Shown in pieces: positions 4,240-39,197 of a stretch of 39,607 nt of DNA (the stretch's first letter is position 1; each line of letters starts with the position of its first letter). The notes beneath the pieces are model-generated. The model was not told the origin of the DNA and searched no databases. It saw nothing but the letters and a program-made list of their open reading frames with translations. The stretch comes from a virus. The stretch covers positions 1 to 39,607 of IMG/VR virus record IMGVR_UViG_3300039449_000037; one strand, 5' to 3'. The translations under genes and the position numbers were made by a program.

Positions 4240-7200
4240 CAGTCTGCATCTCCTAGAAATTCAATCACGATCACGTCGTCATCGACGGGCACGTTGCTTG
4301 GCGTTACTGTACGGATAATCTCAACCGGCGCGGCAGCGGCATCGGTATTAAACCGCACAACATTACTCGCCACCCAACCACCACCCCAGCCCGCCGCACG
4401 TACTGTGAAATACGGCGTTTCTGTCATCGGATTAATCGGTGAAAAATCAGCGTTAATACTGCCTGTACCGATCACACCACGCTGTTCTGAAATGCACTGA
4501 AAGCCGGTACTTGATGTGAATTTCAACTTCCAGCGATCTTCAACACACCCAAGGCTATCCACCAAAATCGGATTATTGAGGTCGTCATAACTTGCGACTG
4601 ACGCATCACCAACAATGTCATCAAGCCAATCTGGCGAGTCCACTTTTTGAAAAAACGTGTTTTTAATTCTCGCTTGCAGATCACCGACTTCAACGACGGC
4701 GGACACGTAACTATCATCAGCAACATAGTCGTGCGTGAGCTGTAAATTAAGATGAAGCTGCCCAGTAACTGACGCATTAGTGATAACAGCACGGTCTTCT
4801 ATTCGGTGATTTACAGAAAGCGGCAGCGTAAGTGAATTACCGTCGCTATCAACCGCACTGAACGGATCGGCCAGCGTCGCAGTACCGGCGGCTAAATCTA
4901 CGGCGTACTGATCATTTGCGAGTAACGCTCCCAACGCGTCTTTAATCACAATCACAGCGCAATCCGTACGTCCGCAATCAATCACCTGCCCGGCCACCGG
5001 GCTGGCGACGCTGACTGTATCGGTATGATGAATAACAACGAGATACCCGTCCTGCATCACTGGCACTTCACCATTGGTCGGCAGTCGCACTGGGTTTAAG
5101 CCGAGGCGTTCTGGGTCTTGCGGTAGCGTTGTATAAGCCACGGCGTTGTATGTGAGTGTTGATAAAATTACAGGCTGAGTGAATGCAATTTCAACGACAC
5201 CGGCGGTGCTATCAACGCTACCACTTGCACTGCCTGCGCTCGTTGTCGCGGGCACAAACGGCAATACGTAGCCGTTACTGACGCCGGGCTGCGGTAGCTC
5301 TGTCAGTGTGTCGCCAGTATCGAATGATCCGGTGATCACGCCGTCATTGTCTGATACCGCCCGCATGAGCGCGCCGTCTGTTGAACGTCGTGCCAGAAAC
5401 TGCAAACCCGAACTACGCAACGGAGCGGCGGCGGTACGGAATACAACCGAAGTCACAGCAACTGCCGCGCCTAAACCCAGCGCGGCGGCATCAAGCGAGC
5501 CACTGAGCGAATCAATAACACTACGCACGGCATCGTAGTTAATCTCGGCCATGCCGTTGACGCTATCAACAGATCCAGCCGTCAGGCCCGCGCCAGTCGT
5601 CGTATCAAATGCGCGATATAACACACCATCGCCACGATCAATTAATTCATCACCATCAAGCGTTAACACAACACCGCCGGGCACTAACGTATCTGTCGCC
5701 ACTTGCATTTTTAACGTTAGATCAGATACGGGGATCGTTTGTGTAACGGGTATGCCCGCCGTGGTCGAGCGGTAACTGATCACAGCAGTTTGCGACTCAA
5801 CGCGCATCGTTTTATCAGTAAAAGAATACTGCCAGCCACCCAATACGCCACCCTGCTCTGTATATTCCGGAACGCGGCGATTAAACGCTGTACCGTCAAC
5901 CGTTATAATACCACTGGCGTAATCGATAGACCCAACTACAACCCCGCCGCCCCCACGTGTTTTTAACTGTCCTTGAGTGTTAGATACAAGCCGCTGCACC
6001 GCACTAATTCGAGATTCATAAATAGTGCCGCCACTAAGCGTGACAGCGGTATAAGACAGCCTTAAATCAAAACTAATCGATCCAGCAACAATATTCGTTT
6101 GGCCTACATCAATTACAACGCTAGCACCAGTACTCTGAGCCACTGAAACACTTGACGTCAGCACCGTACCGTCGTGCTTGTCGTACGTGATAACGACGTC
6201 AGACGTCGGCAAATTCGCGGGAGTAAATGCAACACTATTGCCCGTGATTGATCCCGCGCTACTTGATAACACGCCCGAGGCGTTAGCAGTTTCTGAGTAA
6301 TTACTCGCATTACGCGACCAATCAATTTGCAGTGTTGATTCAAGCGGCACGTCATCAAGATCAATCTCAAACCACGCGCTACGCGCGCCGGTAGTTGCAA
6401 CTTCGTAGGGGGTTTGTGCCCACGTGTAGATGATCTGAGAATTTAAATCAGGTTCACCGGGCAACGTGATTGAGCCGCTTGCTGTGTTGTAGTTAATCGA
6501 CCCACTTGAGCTGGGGCCAGACAGCACACCCGTGCCGTCGTCAGTCAGCGAATACCATTTGCCCAGATACATAAAATCAATGCGCAGCGTGCCGGGAGAC
6601 GGTGGTGGCGCAAGTTGGAACGTGTACGTTATTTGGCGGTTACCGGACGTGATCAAAACCGAATCCGTATACGGCGTTAACTCAACCGCAACGCCGGGGA
6701 TATAACTCACTGAACACGAACGCGAACCCGACACACTAAACGCTAACGTGCCCGCCGTGGCATTGATTGAAACGTCACTCAGATATTCAGAACCAGACAA
6801 CAACCGCAACCCACCGTCAGCCTCATCATGCACGCCACCACCAACGGTTACTTGTAATGTGCCAGGCACCCACGCTGTCGGCAGCGTAATAAATTGCGCG
6901 CCACTTAATGTACCTAATGAGCGGGTTTTAGTGGATGCAGACGTCGGCTGTACCATTTTTTGCACAATGCCGGGCTGCTGATCAACGTAGGCCGTCTCGC
7001 TAGTAGACGCCGGAATCAACGGCTGAAAAATACTGTCAACAAACACACTGGCATCACCCGCGCTGGCGGCTGCCGCTAGCGGACGAATGCCGTAATACTT
7101 AGCCGAGTTATTACTTTGAGTTTTGAATATCTCGGTCGCGTGATTCGCCACCGGCGACGGATCAGAGCCACCAAAATCGTTGTCGAGCTGCTGTGAAATG

Positions 7201-16484: not shown

Positions 16485-16910
16485 TTAATCTACGATGGTG
16501 CCGGTTAGTGGGTCAGCGGGTTGGTCTTTGGCGTCGAAGCCTAGGACGGCAATGCCGGTTTTTACGCTACCGCCAACCGTGGTGAGCTTGGCACGCACGT
16601 AGCGGAAGCCGCCGTTTACGTCTAACTCACCCGCTTTTAGGTTGATTTGCACTGGCGTATCAGTGGCCAGATCAACCGCCGTACGGCCTTCGATGACTTT
16701 GGCACCGGTGCCTGAATCGTCGGTGGCTTGCTCAAACGCGATAGTGCCCGCGCTTGCTACGGTGCCTACCATGGCAATGGCCATAAGGTTGATAAACATC
16801 GACATATCGACCCAGCCAGTGTTGTAAGAGGCATCGGTCGCGTGCGTGTCGGATTTAAGCGCCGCAACGACGGGTGCGCGCAGCGATGGGTTTAGGTTTG
16901 GATTGCTCAT
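16485..16910 (-). CDS. Putative capsid-associated (decoration-like) protein
   Basis: Encodes 141 residues. The ATG at 16910 follows a GGAG box and is preferred to an upstream TTG. The sequence has the pattern of a small virion protein found after capsid genes in many prophages: a central hydrophobic strand (MAIAMVGTVASAGTIAFEQ), then DDSGTGAKVIEG and GGFRYVRAKLTTVGG. The RYVR motif and expected sandwich fold fit that group. Position directly after the major capsid gene suggests a decoration or head-completion role. The exact function is unproven. Confidence 0.55.
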   Translation of the reverse strand: MSNPNLNPSLRAPVVAALKSDTHATDASYNTGWVDMSMFINLMAIAMVGTVASAGTIAFEQATDDSGTGAKVIEGRTAVDLATDTPVQINLKAGELDVNGGFRYVRAKLTTVGGSVKTGIAVLGFDAKDQPADPLTGTIVD

Positions 16911-20562: not shown

Positions 20563-20753
20563 TCAGCACCGCCTTGTGTTGTCCCACGAGCCATGAGCAA
20601 TCCCAGCAGCAACGTGAGCACGCCCACGGATAGCATTGCGCAACCACTGCCCAGCTCTTGATAGACGCCACCACCGATCAGACCTAGGGCGATCAGTAAA
20701 ATGATGTCGAGCTTTGACAGCGGCAAGCGGATGTTGCTGAGGTTTAGTTTCAT
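20559..20753 (-). CDS. Small membrane protein between terminase and portal genes
   Basis: Encodes 64 residues with two hydrophobic segments (about 16-30, IILLIALGLIGGGVY, and about 38-54, MLSVGVLTLLLGLLMA) joined by a short Gly-rich turn. It sits in ATGA overlap with both the large terminase and the portal, so it is certainly translated in the packaging operon. Tiny two-helix proteins at this place occur in other HK97-type phages, but I know no function. It shows no charged C-terminal tail typical of holins. Confidence 0.7.
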   Translation of the reverse strand: MKLNLSNIRLPLSKLDIILLIALGLIGGGVYQELGSGCAMLSVGVLTLLLGLLMARGTTQGGAE

Positions 20754-22468
20754 AGTTCACCGTCTGCGTAGATTGATCGAGCCCGCTTTTTCTCGGGCAT
20801 GAGTATTTGCACACCTAGGGCCATGATGGTCGCGGCTGCCGGGTCGATCTTTTCTTTGATTTTGGATTTATCGGGCTTTATGTCACCCGCCGGGTTGATG
20901 TCGGCCACGAGGTTGCCCATCGCCCAATAAAGTACTGGGTTGCTGTACTCAAACATGGTGTTGAGCACTCGAATCATTAGCTCTTTCATTGGCGCTGACA
21001 TCGAGCCGAAGCCTTGCCCGAATTCAATCATGGGCACGCCTTCGCCTAACATGTCGTTGACTAGCTGGTTTGAGTTCCAGCGGTCAAACGCGATGCCTTG
21101 CACGTTGAAGTATTCGCACGCGGTGCGCATGTCTTTTTTAATGTATTCGTAGTCTACGGTTTGCCCAGGCACTACTTGCAGGTGCCCAGTAACCACGAAT
21201 TTCTCAAGCGATTTATCACCCTTGGCCAATCGTCGATCTAGCGCCCCTTGCGGCAAGTAGGCGCGAACAAATGTGCGGGTTTTGCCGTTGACCACGGTGG
21301 TAAATGACAGCGCTGTCATGTCTTCGACGCTGGATAGATCGAGACCACCCCACGCCGCTTTGCCTTTGAATTCATCACAGCCTGACCACGGCGCTTGGTC
21401 GTCGTAGTCTGTTTCGCAGAGCGCTAGGCGCTCCATGTTCATCCACTTGGCCTCACCGCGTAACGCGATATTGAGGCGCTTGGTCATGAACTCTATGCGC
21501 TCAGTGGGTATCTCCTTGGCCATGCGGCATTGTTCGCGCATGTCATCTGGATTTACCGACACACCCAAATTAGGGTTTGCCTTTTTCCATTCTTCCTCGT
21601 CGTCCCATTTTTCTGGATCATCGACGGTGTAGATGATGGCAAAGTAGCTGTCATCATCAATGCTGCCTTCGAGCACTTTTGTCGCGTAGGCGAGCTGGTC
21701 AGCGTCAATACCATCGGGGATAAAACCTGCGGTGGTGATGGTCCATATCAGCGGTTGCTTTCGGGCACCCCGCGCCGATTTGATCACATCCCAAACGGCT
21801 GACGTTGGGTGTGCGTGCAATTCGTCGATCAGGCCATAGTGAACGTTGAGGCCGTCCATCGATTTTGAATCTTTAGACAGCGCCTGCAATCGTCCACGAC
21901 TTTTAAGCGCTACGACTCGATCAGCATAAGACTTAATCAAAGACGAAAGCTTGGGGCTTTGCTCCAGCATGGCCAGCGCAGCGTCGTAAAGTTCTTTGGC
22001 TTGGTCGCGTTTGGTCGCGGCTGAGTACACACGCGGACCACCTTCGCGATCACCTAGCAAACCATAGTTGCCTATGTACGCGAGCTTGGTCGTTTTGCCG
22101 TTTTTGCGCGGCACCCGCTCGTAAGCGATACGAAAACGACGAGTACCGTCGGCACGCATCCAACCGTAGATATTGGCAATCGTGAAGCACTGCCAGCCTT
22201 GCAGCTCTAACGGCAGGCCCGCAAATTCGCCCTCATACTGACGACAGTAGCCGGAGAATCGAAATACCCGCGCAGCTTCGTTTTCATCGAAGTACAGGCC
22301 GCGCTCGCCACCCGTTTCAAGATCACGAAACCAGCGGTCAATGGCTAATTTAGTGAGCCGACAAACGGGGATTTTTCCATCACGAACGTCGTCAGCGTAC
22401 TGATACGCCATGTCGATGTACTTGCGGCCAAGATCGACCGCAGGCACCGACTTAACAACGGCACTCAC
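20750..22468 (-). CDS. Terminase large subunit
   Basis: Encodes 572 residues with a GTG start in GTGA overlap with the small subunit. The ATPase half carries an HK97-type Walker A at about residues 120-126 (PRKNGKT) and a Walker B at about 213-216 (LIDE in YGLIDELHAH). A C-terminal RNase H-like nuclease begins near the GGLDLSSVEDMTAL segment, with its first acidic residue in GLDLS. It cuts concatemers and drives DNA into the prohead through the portal. Length and motifs are those of the Terminase_1 family. Confidence 0.93.
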   Translation of the reverse strand: MSAVVKSVPAVDLGRKYIDMAYQYADDVRDGKIPVCRLTKLAIDRWFRDLETGGERGLYFDENEAARVFRFSGYCRQYEGEFAGLPLELQGWQCFTIANIYGWMRADGTRRFRIAYERVPRKNGKTTKLAYIGNYGLLGDREGGPRVYSAATKRDQAKELYDAALAMLEQSPKLSSLIKSYADRVVALKSRGRLQALSKDSKSMDGLNVHYGLIDELHAHPTSAVWDVIKSARGARKQPLIWTITTAGFIPDGIDADQLAYATKVLEGSIDDDSYFAIIYTVDDPEKWDDEEEWKKANPNLGVSVNPDDMREQCRMAKEIPTERIEFMTKRLNIALRGEAKWMNMERLALCETDYDDQAPWSGCDEFKGKAAWGGLDLSSVEDMTALSFTTVVNGKTRTFVRAYLPQGALDRRLAKGDKSLEKFVVTGHLQVVPGQTVDYEYIKKDMRTACEYFNVQGIAFDRWNSNQLVNDMLGEGVPMIEFGQGFGSMSAPMKELMIRVLNTMFEYSNPVLYWAMGNLVADINPAGDIKPDKSKIKEKIDPAAATIMALGVQILMPEKKRARSIYADGEL

Positions 22469-22938
22469 AAATCAAGCGAACCCTGATTAGGGTTTTCCAG
22501 TTTGATTGCTTGGCGAGCGCGCGGAGTCATACCCAATTGCTGCTCAAGTTTTGCTAGCTGCTCAGCGGCTTGCTTACGCAATACAGCTTCAACAGACATT
22601 TGACGCGCGCCCGTGGCAAATTGCTGGATCGACGCTTCACCACGATTCTTTTGGCACTTCGTGTTCCAGTGCTGCCACTCGCAATACGTCACAACGTAAC
22701 GATGAAACACAGAGGTATCAATCTCAGACAGAATGCCCAGCTCAACAAGCTTGGCACCCATCGAGTCCCACAACGCAGACTCAGGTGCCTTCAAACCCTT
22801 AGGCTTATCAGGCAAACCAGCTGTCACGCCTTGGTATAAATCATCACCCGCAGCCGTAGCCGTATCAGAGCCCGCGCTGGTTTGTGGTTTTTTGGACTCC
22901 AGCGGAACGACATTAGCGCGAATATTGCTCTCGCTCAT
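22465..22938 (-). CDS. Terminase small subunit, P27 family
   Basis: Encodes 157 residues. After a low-complexity N-terminal 45 residues, the segment PKGLKAPESALWDSMGAKLV, LGILSEIDTSVFHRYVVTYC and EWQHWNTKCQ is the P27-type small terminase signature. It recognises the packaging site and recruits the large subunit. The AGGTGAC ribosome-binding site lies in the gap that probably includes cos. It overlaps the large subunit gene as GTGA. Confidence 0.88.
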   Translation of the reverse strand: MSESNIRANVVPLESKKPQTSAGSDTATAAGDDLYQGVTAGLPDKPKGLKAPESALWDSMGAKLVELGILSEIDTSVFHRYVVTYCEWQHWNTKCQKNRGEASIQQFATGARQMSVEAVLRKQAAEQLAKLEQQLGMTPRARQAIKLENPNQGSLDL

Positions 22939-24930: not shown

Positions 24931-25296
24931 TTAATCTAAGCCCTGACCAGAAGAAATAAACATAAAAATCATATACATACCGCTTTCCACCCACCGACGA
25001 TAAGTTCTATCAGAAATCCCTAACGCCTTACTACTTTGAACATCAGTACTGTCTGGCCGCTCGTACCGCTCCTTAATCGCCATACGCTCATTGCTTGGTA
25101 GTGACCTCAGCGCCATGTTCGCCTGACGTGCCTCTGAGTCTTCCAGAACCACCGCTGTTGAATCGTAATGAGTAGCCTCACCCAATCGCCCCAGCACACA
25201 CGGGATACCCACCGGCCCAGCATAGACAGCGGCCCAGTGAGCCATGCACCGATCCACGTACGCTTTCTGATCTTTCGTCAACATTCCAACAGCCAT
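24931..25296 (-). CDS. Late-gene regulator, sigma/antitermination type (putative)
   Basis: Encodes 121 residues. The middle and C-terminal parts (MALRSLPSNERMAIKERYER, then SSKALGISDRTYRRWVESG) have the layout of a sigma region 4-like helix-turn-helix, as in phage ArpU/RinA-type and Q-type late activators. The N-terminal KAYVDRCMAHWAAVYAG is also typical of these small proteins. It sits last in the replication operon, immediately before the candidate late promoter and tandem terminators, the place of Q in lambdoid phages. Whether it activates initiation or antiterminates cannot be told from sequence. Confidence 0.6.
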   Translation of the reverse strand: MAVGMLTKDQKAYVDRCMAHWAAVYAGPVGIPCVLGRLGEATHYDSTAVVLEDSEARQANMALRSLPSNERMAIKERYERPDSTDVQSSKALGISDRTYRRWVESGMYMIFMFISSGQGLD

Positions 25297-25327
25297 AAAA
25301 ACTCCAAATAAACAAAAATCAAAAAAG

Positions 25328-25601
25328 CCTAGGGACGCCTAGGGTTTAATTTTTAACCCTAGGCGTCTACAACCCGCATAAACTCTACAAATGCCTAGGG
25401 GCCTAGGGTGCCTAGGGGGTTTTCTCTCGCGCGAGAGAAAAAAATAAACTCAAATAAAAACCGTTAAATAAATGCGCGCACGTGCGCGGGCGCGTAGAAC
25501 CCTAGGCCCCTAGGCATTTTTACTGGAACCCAGAAACCACGTGGCCTACAGACGCCTAGGGGTACACCGCTAAACCCTAGGCACACCCTAGGCACCCTAG
25601 G
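25328..25601. repeat. Array of twelve GCCTAGGG octamers (candidate origin or partition/regulatory locus)
   Basis: Within the 306-bp gene-free gap at 25297-25602, CCTAGG occurs twelve times, always in the octamer GCCTAGGG or its complement CCCTAGGC. CCTAGG starts are 25328, 25338, 25358, 25394, 25402, 25411, 25501, 25509, 25555, 25576, 25587 and 25596. Octamer orientation is ++-+++ in the left group and --+--- in the right group, so the two halves oppose each other around an AT-rich centre (25442-25473). The centre is flanked by two palindromes: 25420-25441 (22 bp, TTTTCTCTCGC and its complement) and 25475-25488 (14 bp). The gap adjoins the helicase gene, as origins often do. Confidence 0.85.
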
Positions 25602-25602
25602 C

Positions 25603-27276
25603 TTATTCACCCGTAACACCATTCAACCCAGCCTGCATACGAAACTCCTTCACACAATCAGACAGCCATTCACTCTGGTTCTTACCCTCAGGCTTCGTAT
25701 GTATGATGAAAAACGTCCCCTTGCGATCCTTACGCGCAGTCTTACCGGCCCCGCCGGGGTCATCGTACCTAATCGACGACCGCCGTTTTAATCGCACCGC
25801 CATCGCGTTACTAAATTTCTCACGGCTCATGGTTCGTTCGTGGCCTGCCTTACACCATGCGTCGTACACCAGAAACAGATCATCACTCAGACAACTGAAA
25901 TACGGCGCATCCAAGTTGCCCGCGGTCCACTCTCGATAGAATATCTCCCACGACGGCAAACCAAACTCAATTAGCCGCTCTTTGGCTTTAGTCATTGGGG
26001 CTTCGGTGTAGGGGTCAAACTCCCCCAGGTCAACGCGCAACAACCAATCATAAAAGGCCTCGATGCCGCCATGCTTTAGCTCATAGCTAACACGCGCCTT
26101 TAACTCAGGGTCTATTTTTTCATCAGGCCAGATCACCAAAAACCGGCGATCTGTCGTTTCAACGGGGAACGGCTGCAACTCGTTAGAGAGGAACACCGCA
26201 TTCATGTGATTGGCTTCTTCCCAACCGGACATGAATTTCTTTTCGATGCGGGTTTTTTCACCCGTGATCATTTGCTTGATCGTACCCATCTGGGAGTATT
26301 TATTAGATCGAGAGAAAATCTCTTCAAACAACCCAAACAACAAATTACTTTGCCAATCCGTGTACTGAGATTCCATTTGATGCTGCCCAAGCGTTGCCGC
26401 ATAACGACCATACAAAGGCCGCATCACACCTTCAAAAAACAGACTCTTACCCGAGCCTTGCATTTCCGAGTGCATCAACACCGCCGTGCGCAGCTTCGCA
26501 CCAACGTGCTGCAACGGGTACGCCAACCAACGCGTAATCCACGTCCATACCTCATCTTCTTTATTGCACAACGAATACAGCAAATGGCGAATACCACGGC
26601 ACGCATCATCATCACGCACTGGCTGCAACGGCAACCCCTGAAACATATTGATATAAGTGTCTGGGTCAACCCGTTGCGACGGATCAAACACCACATTCTT
26701 TTTCAGCACCATCTGACGTTCTGGTGACGTATTCCAAAAATCGAAAGCAGCAGGAATCACACAGCGAACTTGCTCCATCGTGATTACCTCTCGCAATTCA
26801 CGATCCCAAACCTCTTTGCTCGGCTCAAGATACACAAATCGCTCTAGGGCACGGTCTAACCCCTGCACCCCTCTCTTTTTGGCGGCGAGCACCGCGGCTG
26901 AAATATCATCCTCATTGACCTGACGTTTAACGCCAGAATCAAGCCACTCCTGCCCGATCTTCTTACCGGCAATACGCTTAAACGCCGTAACCTTCAGCTT
27001 GCACTGCTTGTGCATATCCCAGACGTCACCGCTTGGAAAGATCAACGCAAACCGCTTAATTGCCTCATCAAGAGTCATCTCACTGGCTTCAACCGGCACA
27101 ACCTCGACCGGCACATCAGCCTCGTTTAAAACCTCACATTCCGCGTCGCCGTGCGAAGGGGGTTCGGGGGATGGAGATACAGAGGACCGCGCTTTTTCTA
27201 TCGCAGCATTTACTTGCACAGCAACAGCAGCCAGACCTTCAGCAACATGCAAATCATTAAAATCAACACCCGCCAT
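25603..27276 (-). CDS. Phage replicative helicase, SF3-like (DUF5906 family)
   Basis: Encodes 557 residues. The N-terminal 70 residues are variable and proline-rich. The helicase core has a Walker A at about 271-278 (EMQGSGKS), then LLFGLFEEIFSRSNK as Walker B region, and AVFLSNELQPFPVETTDRRF as sensor/SF3 motif C with the following Arg finger-like RRF. This is the DUF5906/primase-polymerase-associated helicase group used by many phages and plasmids to unwind DNA at the origin. It overlaps the primase gene as TAATG, and its stop abuts the octamer array. Confidence 0.85.
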   Translation of the reverse strand: MAGVDFNDLHVAEGLAAVAVQVNAAIEKARSSVSPSPEPPSHGDAECEVLNEADVPVEVVPVEASEMTLDEAIKRFALIFPSGDVWDMHKQCKLKVTAFKRIAGKKIGQEWLDSGVKRQVNEDDISAAVLAAKKRGVQGLDRALERFVYLEPSKEVWDRELREVITMEQVRCVIPAAFDFWNTSPERQMVLKKNVVFDPSQRVDPDTYINMFQGLPLQPVRDDDACRGIRHLLYSLCNKEDEVWTWITRWLAYPLQHVGAKLRTAVLMHSEMQGSGKSLFFEGVMRPLYGRYAATLGQHQMESQYTDWQSNLLFGLFEEIFSRSNKYSQMGTIKQMITGEKTRIEKKFMSGWEEANHMNAVFLSNELQPFPVETTDRRFLVIWPDEKIDPELKARVSYELKHGGIEAFYDWLLRVDLGEFDPYTEAPMTKAKERLIEFGLPSWEIFYREWTAGNLDAPYFSCLSDDLFLVYDAWCKAGHERTMSREKFSNAMAVRLKRRSSIRYDDPGGAGKTARKDRKGTFFIIHTKPEGKNQSEWLSDCVKEFRMQAGLNGVTGE

Positions 27277-28316
27277 TACGCCACCTCATCAGCAGCAGTA
27301 AACACAGGCACAACAACAGAAGCACCACAGCCATTCGCCGCACGGGTCGCGTACTTAATGCCCGCATTTTCTTCTGTTGCAGAGTCATCATCAGCACAAA
27401 TCAACAACGTCGCGTTAGGCTCCTCAACACGAACAACCGGCAGCACATTCACCAAATTGCCCGCATCAATGGCCACCACACAGGCATAACCCGTGGCCAT
27501 ATGAATACTGGCCGCCGTGGCATACCCCTCAGCGACACAAACGACATCGGTATTGCCAGAAATCACATGAAAACAGCCAGACTTACGGCCATGACGAAAA
27601 AACGACTTTTTACCCGACGGGAAAATGATCTGAACCGACCATAAATCACGACCATCAAACAACGGCACTAACAACGAACCGCGCTTGATATTACGCACAG
27701 ACACATGCTCAGGCTTGCCCGCTTGCGCGTAATCAGCAAAAAACGCCTGAATGTCAGCCTCACCCGTCAATACCTGAAACGACTCAGCCTTATCATCAAT
27801 CGCGACCACAATCGAATGGGGCACCACATACACACCAAACGCACCGACCTGCTTAGTCGCTAAATACGGGCAATCAATACCGCCGTATTCACTACCGCCA
27901 ACAACGCTCAATAACTCAGCAGTCGCCTGAGCAACCACCAACGCCATTCGATCCTTCCACGCCTGACGTTTCTTTTCTTCTTCTTCACGCTTGCGCTTAT
28001 CAGCAGCCACCTTAGCGCGATAGGCATCACGCTCAGCATCCGACCACTCTTTATCAGCAGGACGCCAACCGGCATCCTTCGCCATCTTAATCAGCGTGCC
28101 AATACCCACGCCCGACTTACTAAAACTCTTCCACACGGCTTTACAGTCAGCCGCTTTATAACTCTCAGACCCCTGAGACCAACTGTCGAAAATATCCCAC
28201 GCCACATCACCAAACTCAGCACGTAGCGCCATACCGACCTGTAACCAATCTTCACGCGCATCAGACGACAACGCCTGCACCGCCTGCCTGGCATCATCCA
28301 ATGTAAAATCATTCAT
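27276..28316 (-). CDS. Primase with PriCT and Toprim domains
   Basis: Encodes 346 residues. Residues 1-75 (DDARQAVQALSSDAREDWLQ, then FDSWSQGSESYKAADCKAVW and GVGIGTLIKMAKDAGW) match PriCT_2. The centre has a Lys/Glu-rich linker. Residues about 245-340 form a Toprim fold: VVCVAEGYATAASIHMATGY with the catalytic Glu, and LLICADDDSATEENAG with the Asp pair. It would synthesise primers for the adjoining helicase. There is no N-terminal zinc-binding domain, so template recognition may depend on a partner. Confidence 0.85.
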   Translation of the reverse strand: MNDFTLDDARQAVQALSSDAREDWLQVGMALRAEFGDVAWDIFDSWSQGSESYKAADCKAVWKSFSKSGVGIGTLIKMAKDAGWRPADKEWSDAERDAYRAKVAADKRKREEEEKKRQAWKDRMALVVAQATAELLSVVGGSEYGGIDCPYLATKQVGAFGVYVVPHSIVVAIDDKAESFQVLTGEADIQAFFADYAQAGKPEHVSVRNIKRGSLLVPLFDGRDLWSVQIIFPSGKKSFFRHGRKSGCFHVISGNTDVVCVAEGYATAASIHMATGYACVVAIDAGNLVNVLPVVRVEEPNATLLICADDDSATEENAGIKYATRAANGCGASVVVPVFTAADEVA

Positions 28317-33915: not shown

Positions 33916-34581
33916 ATGAACGACCTACTCATGCTGTTTTTTATCATCGCCCTAGCGATATGCGCCCTAGTAGCAATTTTTCTAGGTGGTGCTTACGTCA
34001 TGGCAAAACGCTGCGTTGAAGTGCTGCAGGGTTGGATACCGCACAGCGAGCCAACAACAATAAAATTAATGATCATGGGCCACGCCCGCCACGGCAAAGA
34101 CACAGCGTGCGAATACCTACGCGACAAGTACGGCCTAACATTTAAAAGCAGCTCAGAAGCTGCCTGCGAATCGATCATCTATCCAGCGCTAAAAGACGTG
34201 CATGGATATAAAACGATTAAAGAATGCTTCAACGACCGCGTGAATCATCGCGAAAGCTGGTATGCATTAATTAGTAATTATTGTCACCACAACCCAGCCG
34301 TATTAAGTGAAATAATATTTCAAGACCACGATATTTATTGTGGAATTCGAAGTAAAAAAGAGTTTGATGCAACCGAAGCCGCCAGCCTCTTTGATCTATC
34401 CATTTGGATCGACGCCAGCAAACGCTTGCCCGCAGAAAGCGAAGACAGCTGCACAGTCACAAAAGAAGATGCCGACATCGTAATAAGTAACAACGGCACT
34501 CTTGAGCAGCTATACGCTGCACTTGATCGAATGATGCTCACCATCGCAACACCGAAGAAAAAAATCGGGATGGCCATCTAA
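33916..34581 (+). CDS. Membrane-anchored deoxynucleoside monophosphate kinase-like protein
   Basis: Encodes 221 residues behind a clear AAGGAG box, so the N terminus is real. Residues about 4-28 form a membrane helix (LLMLFFIIALAICALVAIFL). From residue 50 comes a P-loop domain: LMIMGHARHGKDTACEYLRD with G-H-A-R-H-G-K-D-T as Walker A (55-63). The later helices and IVISNNGTLEQLYAALDRMM resemble phage dNMP kinase/NMP kinase folds. It would phosphorylate dNMPs for phage DNA synthesis. An N-terminal anchor is unusual for this family. TAATG overlap with the methyltransferase gene. Confidence 0.65.
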   Translation: MNDLLMLFFIIALAICALVAIFLGGAYVMAKRCVEVLQGWIPHSEPTTIKLMIMGHARHGKDTACEYLRDKYGLTFKSSSEAACESIIYPALKDVHGYKTIKECFNDRVNHRESWYALISNYCHHNPAVLSEIIFQDHDIYCGIRSKKEFDATEAASLFDLSIWIDASKRLPAESEDSCTVTKEDADIVISNNGTLEQLYAALDRMMLTIATPKKKIGMAI

Positions 34582-35468
34582 TGCAAATAATCGCCAACTC
34601 ATATTTTTGTGGTGCCGGCCTTTTAGACGTAGGACTACAACGCGCGGGCGTTCAAATCGGCCAAGCCTTCGAGCTGGATCGTGACGCCTGCAAAACCTAC
34701 CGCGCCAATAACAACCACAAACTGACCGAAGGCGATATCTGTAATCAATTAGTCTTAGAACAAGACGGCTGCGATTTAATGGTGTTCACCTACCCATGCA
34801 CAAAATACAGCCGCATGGCCGACATACACGGCACCCGAACCGGCGACGAATTATTTCTTCATGCGTTACGTCATTTAGCCATCGCGCGCCCCGAAGCTTA
34901 CACCGTCGAAAACGTACCAGGCATGCGAGCATTCCCCATCGTCATGGAAGCCATGAGCAAAATGCCTGATTACTACATACAAATATTCTGCCCAGTAAAA
35001 GCAGAGACATGGCTACCACAACGCCGCAACCGCTTAATTATTATTGGCACCAAAAAGCGCTTTAATATTCGCCCACCCGAGGGCACCAAGCCGATTAAAT
35101 TGGCCGACATATTAGAACACGATCCATGCGTCACCATCCCCAAAGCCGTACACGAACGCATGATAGGGAAATACCGCGATTTACCAATCATCAGCGACCC
35201 CAAAAAAGGCGACATTGCACCCACATGCGTCGCTCATTACGCAAAAGATAAAAGCACCCGCCTAGTTGCTGACAAACGATTTAATCTAGGCGTTCGCCCC
35301 TATAGCGTTCGCGAATACGCACGACTTCAAGGTCTGCCAGATTCGTTTATTTTTCCGGTTTCTGATACCGCCGCCTATCGCCAAATAGGCAACGGCGTTG
35401 CCGTACCAATGGGTGAATGGATAGGCACAGAAATGACACGTTATTTTAAAAACCGGAGGGCAGCGTGA
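34581..35468 (+). CDS. DNA cytosine-5 methyltransferase
   Basis: Encodes 295 residues. Motif I (FCGAGLLDVG, residues 9-18), motif IV with the catalytic Cys73 (TYPCTKYS; most enzymes read PCQxFS), motif VI (ENVPG, 110-114), motif VIII (QRRNR, 147-151), and IX/X (YSVREYARLQGLP, QIGNGVAVPMG) are all present. The target-recognition region is about 155-235. No restriction partner adjoins it, so it is an orphan enzyme, probably protecting phage DNA or regulating expression. Its specificity is unknown. The cassette array starts 7 bases after its stop. Confidence 0.92.
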   Translation: MQIIANSYFCGAGLLDVGLQRAGVQIGQAFELDRDACKTYRANNNHKLTEGDICNQLVLEQDGCDLMVFTYPCTKYSRMADIHGTRTGDELFLHALRHLAIARPEAYTVENVPGMRAFPIVMEAMSKMPDYYIQIFCPVKAETWLPQRRNRLIIIGTKKRFNIRPPEGTKPIKLADILEHDPCVTIPKAVHERMIGKYRDLPIISDPKKGDIAPTCVAHYAKDKSTRLVADKRFNLGVRPYSVREYARLQGLPDSFIFPVSDTAAYRQIGNGVAVPMGEWIGTEMTRYFKNRRAA

Positions 35469-38072: not shown

Positions 38073-39197
38073 ATGACACCACGCAAGCGCAAATCAACCG
38101 CCGACAACTGGCTACCGTCCCGAGTCTATCGCGGCAAATCGTCCTACGAATATCGCCCCAAGGGTGGCAAATGCCAGGTGCTCGCTAAACTACAACGCGA
38201 CCCAGCGGGAAACATCGTCGAACCCGTCGAACTACGCCGCGCAGTGATGGACGCCTACGACCGCGCTGTCATCGAAGCCCGACCAGCCAAGGACGTAAAT
38301 TATTGGCTTAACAAATTCATGGTGTCCGACAAATTCATAAGCCTGAGCCACCTCACGCAAGAAGACTACCGCCGTTACATCGAAGTGATCGTCGATCCAA
38401 GCAACCCAGCCAGTAAAGCCACACACAACGGCATACGCTACGTATTCGGGGCAATGACCCCTACTAACGTCAAACCGACGCACATACGCCGCTATATGGA
38501 CTACTGGAACACCCCGCAAACCGTCACTCAGGCATCTGGCCGCATACTCGATGGCAAAGCCAAGCCAACCACCGCAAATCGACACCTGAGCTGCCTCCAA
38601 GCGTTTTTCAAATGGCTGCGCCAATATCTAACCGGCATGGAGCAAAACCCCGCTGACGGCCTGATCAAATTCCCAGAGACCGTGCGACAGGTATACATCA
38701 CTGACGATCAATACCTAAACATGCTTGAAGCATCACTCAACAGCACCACACCGTGGTTTTTCTCGTTTCTTGAAATCGCGTACCTTTGCGGCCTGCGACG
38801 TAACGAAGTGTGCAAGCTGAATCACGACGACATCATCACCGAAGACAACACCCAATACCTGCGCATAATCCGCAGCAAAGGCTCAAAAGGCGAACTGATC
38901 GAAATCACCGACCGCTTGCAAACCGCCATCGATACCGCCATCAGCTTATATCCAGCCGGAAAGATCGAACCGATACGCGAGCGCCCCATCATCCGCAACA
39001 CCCGTGGCGACCGAATCAGCAAATCAGCACTACAAAAAGCACTCGCAAACGTGAAAACCGCCACCGGCATCACAGACGTGACACTGCATGACATGAAGAA
39101 AAAAGCCGGAACAGACGGAAAAGACCTAGGCCACAAAACCAAGCGCATGGCCGAGCTGTATAATCTAAAACTGAAAAAAGGCACCGCGACGCGATGA
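38073..39197 (+). CDS. Phage tyrosine integrase (Arg II replaced by Lys)
   Basis: Encodes 374 residues. The catalytic domain shows Arg I (R242 in CGLRRNEVCKL), then LHDMKKKAGTD with H339 and Lys342 where Arg II is normal, H354 (LGHKTKRMAELYN) and the nucleophile Tyr363. HxxK boxes of the HDxKxKG type do occur in phage integrases, so it may be active. The core-binding region (about 75-190) lies before it. It has no IntI-type insert, so it is unlikely to process attC sites. It integrates the phage; the DUF4224 gene just upstream probably directs excision. Confidence 0.9.
   Translation: MTPRKRKSTADNWLPSRVYRGKSSYEYRPKGGKCQVLAKLQRDPAGNIVEPVELRRAVMDAYDRAVIEARPAKDVNYWLNKFMVSDKFISLSHLTQEDYRRYIEVIVDPSNPASKATHNGIRYVFGAMTPTNVKPTHIRRYMDYWNTPQTVTQASGRILDGKAKPTTANRHLSCLQAFFKWLRQYLTGMEQNPADGLIKFPETVRQVYITDDQYLNMLEASLNSTTPWFFSFLEIAYLCGLRRNEVCKLNHDDIITEDNTQYLRIIRSKGSKGELIEITDRLQTAIDTAISLYPAGKIEPIRERPIIRNTRGDRISKSALQKALANVKTATGITDVTLHDMKKKAGTDGKDLGHKTKRMAELYNLKLKKGTATR

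Follow-up and report, generated by a model that had tools for sequence, protein, structure and literature searches.

A putative iteron-based replication origin adjoining the SF3 helicase gene of a temperate tailed phage

The window analyzed here is the whole of a 39,607-base virus record (IMG/VR record IMGVR_UViG_3300039449_000037). The genes that frame the putative origin, together with the integrase-family gene, are as follows.

27276 to 28316, negative strand: primase-like protein with PriCT-2 and Toprim domains and the EGYATA motif that P4 alpha also has
25603 to 27276, negative strand: SF3/D5-type helicase (PF19263 DUF5906, phrog_2249 DNA primase)
25297 to 25602, no strand: putative replication origin as a whole, from the helicase stop to the start of the late-regulator gene
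24931 to 25296, negative strand: late-regulator gene 3' of the origin, with a weak phrog_248/HTH match
38073 to 39197: integrase-family gene

The helicase matches PF19263 with an E value of 4e-17. The match of the 24931 product to phrog_248, a family of phage transcriptional activators, is weak (E = 0.0014), and no homologues of this product were found in searches of phages or IMG/VR viral contigs. Beyond the regulator gene lie genes for an endolysin and a holin. A gene for a C5 cytosine methyltransferase (PF00145) is found at 34581 to 35468 on the positive strand. Given its integrase-family gene, the element is a temperate phage. PICI satellites are defined by helper dependence and few particle genes, a description that does not fit the 39.6-kb record. 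The endolysin, holin, and integrase genes, the long open reading frames (1,178 and 1,145 amino acids, in a block read as structural from the frames alone), and a gene order like that of the complete temperate phages PG1 and H4907 all argue against its being a PICI satellite.

The gap contains twelve exact copies of the octamer GCCTAGGG, arranged as two opposed half-arrays with an AT-rich region between them.

25327 to 25417, positive strand: half-array A, six GCCTAGGG iterons in the order ++-+++, at 25327, 25337, 25357 (negative), 25393, 25401, and 25410
25420 to 25441, no strand: perfect 22-bp palindrome TTTTCTCTCGCGCGAGAGAAAA
25438 to 25474, no strand: stretch of 84% AT between the half-arrays, a candidate DNA unwinding element
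25475 to 25495, no strand: alternating CG-rich element that includes the 14-bp palindrome CGCGCACGTGCGCG at 25475 to 25488
25500 to 25602, negative strand: half-array B, six GCCTAGGG iterons in the order --+---, at 25500 (negative), 25508 (negative), 25554 (positive), 25575 (negative), 25586 (negative), and 25595 (negative)

These exact-match positions bear out the number and order of octamers given in a first-pass annotation, which had also held that the octamer is unique to the gap; indeed, all of its exact copies in the 39.6 kb scanned are confined to positions 25327 to 25602. The clustering reported there is real, but the array spans 276 bp rather than 274 bp. Likewise, CCTAGG does occur singly at 16540, 20814, and 39125, as listed earlier, but a fourth single site in the record, at 20683, had been overlooked. 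The array is centered at about 25458, with the innermost sites 45 bp away on both sides, and the first octamer directly adjoins the helicase stop codon. In 100 Markov shuffles, the biggest cluster of any 8-mer per 300 bp comprised 4 copies, as opposed to the 12 observed, so the array is far above chance, as had been claimed.

The AT-rich center described by the first-pass annotation between the two opposed groups is distinctive within the record: its core is equaled in AT content by only 54 of 39,575 33-mers. Both palindromes that had been noted in the spacer exist, but perfect palindromes are not kept in relatives. The 22-bp palindrome is imperfect in most of them, and one relative (L023) has a 26-bp palindrome in its place. 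At least most relatives, in contrast, retain the AT-rich spacer and a run of alternating CG; this run is of the CGCGCGCG type and lies beside the inner iterons. Neighboring inverted octamers at 25333 to 25368 may form a hairpin with a 13-bp stem (DNA z-score of -8.5), and further hairpins within the array resemble terminators. GC skew had been proposed as a check on an origin at this site; no switch was found at the array, and the skew here may be mostly driven by transcription. A comparison of the gap with plasmids at the DNA level revealed no similarity.

The first-pass annotation had also proposed looking for the array in related phages. Eighty loci whose helicases are related were taken from IMG/VR, and most of them have opposed short repeats directly after the helicase stop. 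Scores were given to 38 nonredundant loci, with an array score above 5 defined as strong. A strong opposed repeat array was present in the gap 3' of the helicase gene in 33 of the 38, as opposed to none of 109 control stretches from the same loci (0/37, 0/37, and 0/35), which were taken from within the helicase gene, from the gene upstream of it, and from 900 bp further on. A nucleotide search for phage relatives matched only the primase-helicase coding region. Mapped with position-weight matrices, the typical array had medians of 6 repeats on the left and 6 on the right, separated by a median gap of about 93 bp. The 6+6 arrangement was the commonest layout (12 of 31), and the inner spacing was 9 bp. 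The repeat word differed between lineages (CCTAGGC, GGCCGGAGG, TTACCGGAC, TGTGCAGGGT, TGTGTTGGGT, AGTTGAAG, and others), whereas the layout was constant. Most of 62 loci in bacterial genomes showed the same pattern, the nearest being an Oceanobacter locus with 67% identity and the word CCCTAGGC. Repeats were also seen by eye in the same place in the named phages PG1, S1, H4907, and Mcat7.

In two relatives the array is displaced. In L025 it is intact but has been moved 0.5 kb by an inserted gene; in L044 a reduced array with three copies of AGACCTAG is found 0.5 kb further along, past an additional gene. The small gene between helicase and array occupies approximately positions 4626 to 5078 of L025 and 4629 to 5100 of L044, and its product is a stand-alone relative of the C-terminal DNA-binding region of the helicase. 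For the L025 product, identity to that region is 35% over 78 amino acids (E = 2e-15; hhalign, 97%). The gene possibly encodes a paralogous origin-binding regulator.

The helicase was modeled with AlphaFold2 from a 33-sequence alignment (mean pLDDT of 78.6). The predicted structure has a D5/SF3 helicase fold, and its best match among solved structures is the helicase region of NrS-1 (6k9c, Z = 24.7). Further fold matches include ASFV PrimPol, the SaPI5 primase-helicase (Z = 16.3), poxvirus D5/E5, AAV Rep, and papillomavirus E1. Modeled alone, the C-terminal 133 residues form a predicted winged helix (pLDDT of 88) with a predicted recognition helix at residues 485 to 492. A fold search with this domain returned only middling winged helices: the DNA-binding domain of RFX1 (Z = 5.5), Cdc6/Orc1 (Z = 5.2), and the C terminus of AsfvPrimPol (Z = 4.7). 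1KA8, which we take to be the solved origin-binding domain of P4 alpha and to have a winged-helix fold, was absent among the matches listed, and the C termini of P4 alpha and the window helicase align weakly (hhalign E = 0.009).

We compared motif similarity with helicase identity in sliding windows across 31 sequences, controlling for whole-protein identity. Motif similarity rose with identity in residues 481 to 510, which contain the predicted recognition helix (partial r = 0.42), and residues 61 to 80 scored on a par (partial r = 0.41). Correlations were weaker for residues 301 to 330, 351 to 370, and 401 to 420 and near zero for most of the ATPase core. Partial correlations of 0.41 to 0.42 were matched by none of 1,000 label permutations; since the permutations did not model phylogeny, the covariation of motif and helix is suggestive rather than proof. 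Individual loci point both ways. In an Oceanobacter prophage (L094; helix TREKFS, word CCCTAGGC) and in L095 (helix SETKLITIY, word ACCCTGTA), the word is in keeping with the similarity of the recognition helices. On the other hand, a Hahella locus (L096) and L045 have the identical predicted helix LTQTKFSLLLSVK but different words (AAACCCTGCACA and AACCTGTGGC). Thus, the helix alone does not fix specificity, and other contacts matter.

The gap doubles as the 5' region of the late-regulator gene, and it holds six terminator-like hairpins as opposed to 1.2 expected. Both facts would fit an operator or late-gene control site for the 24931 product or another phage regulator, a reading that we nevertheless consider very unlikely. 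For the most part, the hairpins arise from the opposed arrangement of palindromic octamers, and no sigma-70-like promoter was found. Moreover, different relatives encode, 3' of the array, regulators from several families that are unrelated to one another (phrog_79 and 127, which are Q-like, 248/36, and 4300), while array and helicase stay; three relatives (L009, L010, and L012) have the same CTAGG core yet diverged regulators. The regulator is therefore not a likely binder of the array, and the earlier suggestion of a site bound by the 24931 product is not supported by these comparisons. The first-pass annotation had also raised the possibility that the orphan methyltransferase acts on the array; from phage to phage, the repeat word changes in step with the helicase.

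The P4 crr element lies just 3' of the alpha gene and holds type-1 repeats, with the P4 ori 4.5 kb away, so the array might be a crr-like secondary element that aids replication from another, unseen origin. Only one array exists in the whole record, however, and it has an AT-rich center and a 6+6 geometry, one half of which resembles P4 ori and not crr; we accordingly give this reading hardly any weight. ParB-type proteins and terminases, too, act at short sites that are repeated, as would be expected of a centromere-like partition site or a pac/cos packaging site. That the array is such a site strikes us as scarcely credible, given that it adjoins the 3' end of the helicase gene in nearly all lineages and has an AT-rich dyad center, which would be unexpected. 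As for packaging, the presumed terminase genes of the window lie elsewhere (20750 to 22938, presumed from size and gene order), and in PG1 and H4907 the helicase-array order is found apart from the terminase genes.

The locus as a whole is best explained as the replication origin of a temperate tailed phage, bound by the phage's own helicase, and we regard this as very probable. The first-pass annotation had proposed an iteron-bearing origin beside the helicase gene; that proposal is well supported by sequence comparison, in which the array keeps its place and geometry and the word tracks the helicase. We infer the following course of events. The helicase, encoded immediately upstream, would use its C-terminal winged helix to bind the GCCTAGGG iterons, at six sites per side, and would load itself, probably as two opposed hexamers. 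The hexamers would melt the AT-rich stretch lying between them, from which bidirectional unwinding would start, and priming would fall to the PriCT-2/Toprim protein, which is encoded in the operon of the helicase. More tentatively, each iteron might be bound by one helicase subunit, the 6+6 layout serving as a loader-free template for a double hexamer, and the domain and its twelve sites might co-diversify into incompatible origin "codes." We hold this extended proposal with low confidence; if true, mutually incompatible codes could partition co-infecting phages and satellites.

Putative origins of this kind occur both in complete temperate phages and in prophages, whose hosts include Pseudomonas, Stutzerimonas, Marinobacter, and Halomonas, among others. 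The dozen or so natural word variants, each paired with its helicase, offer material for deciphering a winged-helix DNA code, and array variants could serve as a test of one-site-per-subunit loading of a double hexamer. They also raise the question of whether the satellites' replicons came from phages or the reverse. A literature search outside subscription journals and bioRxiv turned up no prior account of an origin of this sort in this group of phages.

Among the closest known systems are the origins of SaPIs and PICIs. They too directly follow the 3' end of the gene for the initiator helicase (PMC7581432, PMC6092414), a position that most relatives of the window phage share, and consist of short iterons grouped in two sets of opposite orientation, with an AT-rich region between them (PMC7581432, PMC6092414). 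Their helicases have a C-terminal DNA-binding domain, as is predicted here (PMC7581432, PMC6092414). SaPI Rep uses its C-terminal domain to recognize the iterons that directly follow rep, apparently in the form of two hexamers (PMC7581432). In PICIs of Gram-negative bacteria, the AT-rich region is always between two iteron sets, and the pri-rep-ori segment of EcCICFT073 supported plasmid replication in E. coli (PMC6092414). Unlike these satellites, the window phage is complete and temperate, carries lysis genes and an integrase gene itself, and has 12 octamers in its array. It has a primase separate from the helicase, of the PriCT-2/Toprim type, whereas the primases of SaPIbov1 and SaPI5 are of the AEP type (PMC7581432). 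SCCmec Cch2, too, is a helicase of the self-loading type; its C-terminal domain binds direct repeats in a putative origin that lies downstream of its operon (PMC7581432), but SCCmec has only three 5-nt iterons, and its primase is the polymerase-like CCPol-MP. NrS-1, the closest solved fold, is a prim-pol fusion, unlike the window helicase.

The similarity to P4 extends to spacing. In P4 ori, the 8-bp type-1 repeats number six and lie at offsets 0, 10, 21, 43, 86, and 96 in the orientation ---+--; half-array B, read in the direction of the helicase gene, has the same orientation, with offsets (0, 9, 20, 41, 87, and 95) within 2 bp of these. P4 alpha also combines a PF19263 helicase with an EGYATA Toprim primase and has repeats 3' of its gene. 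However, the primase and helicase of P4 are parts of a single fused protein, its iteron word is TGTTCACC, and its sites are split between ori and crr, where the window has a single array. Thus, the array is most probably an origin of a known kind, SaPI/PICI- and P4-like, extended here to a large group of complete temperate phages.
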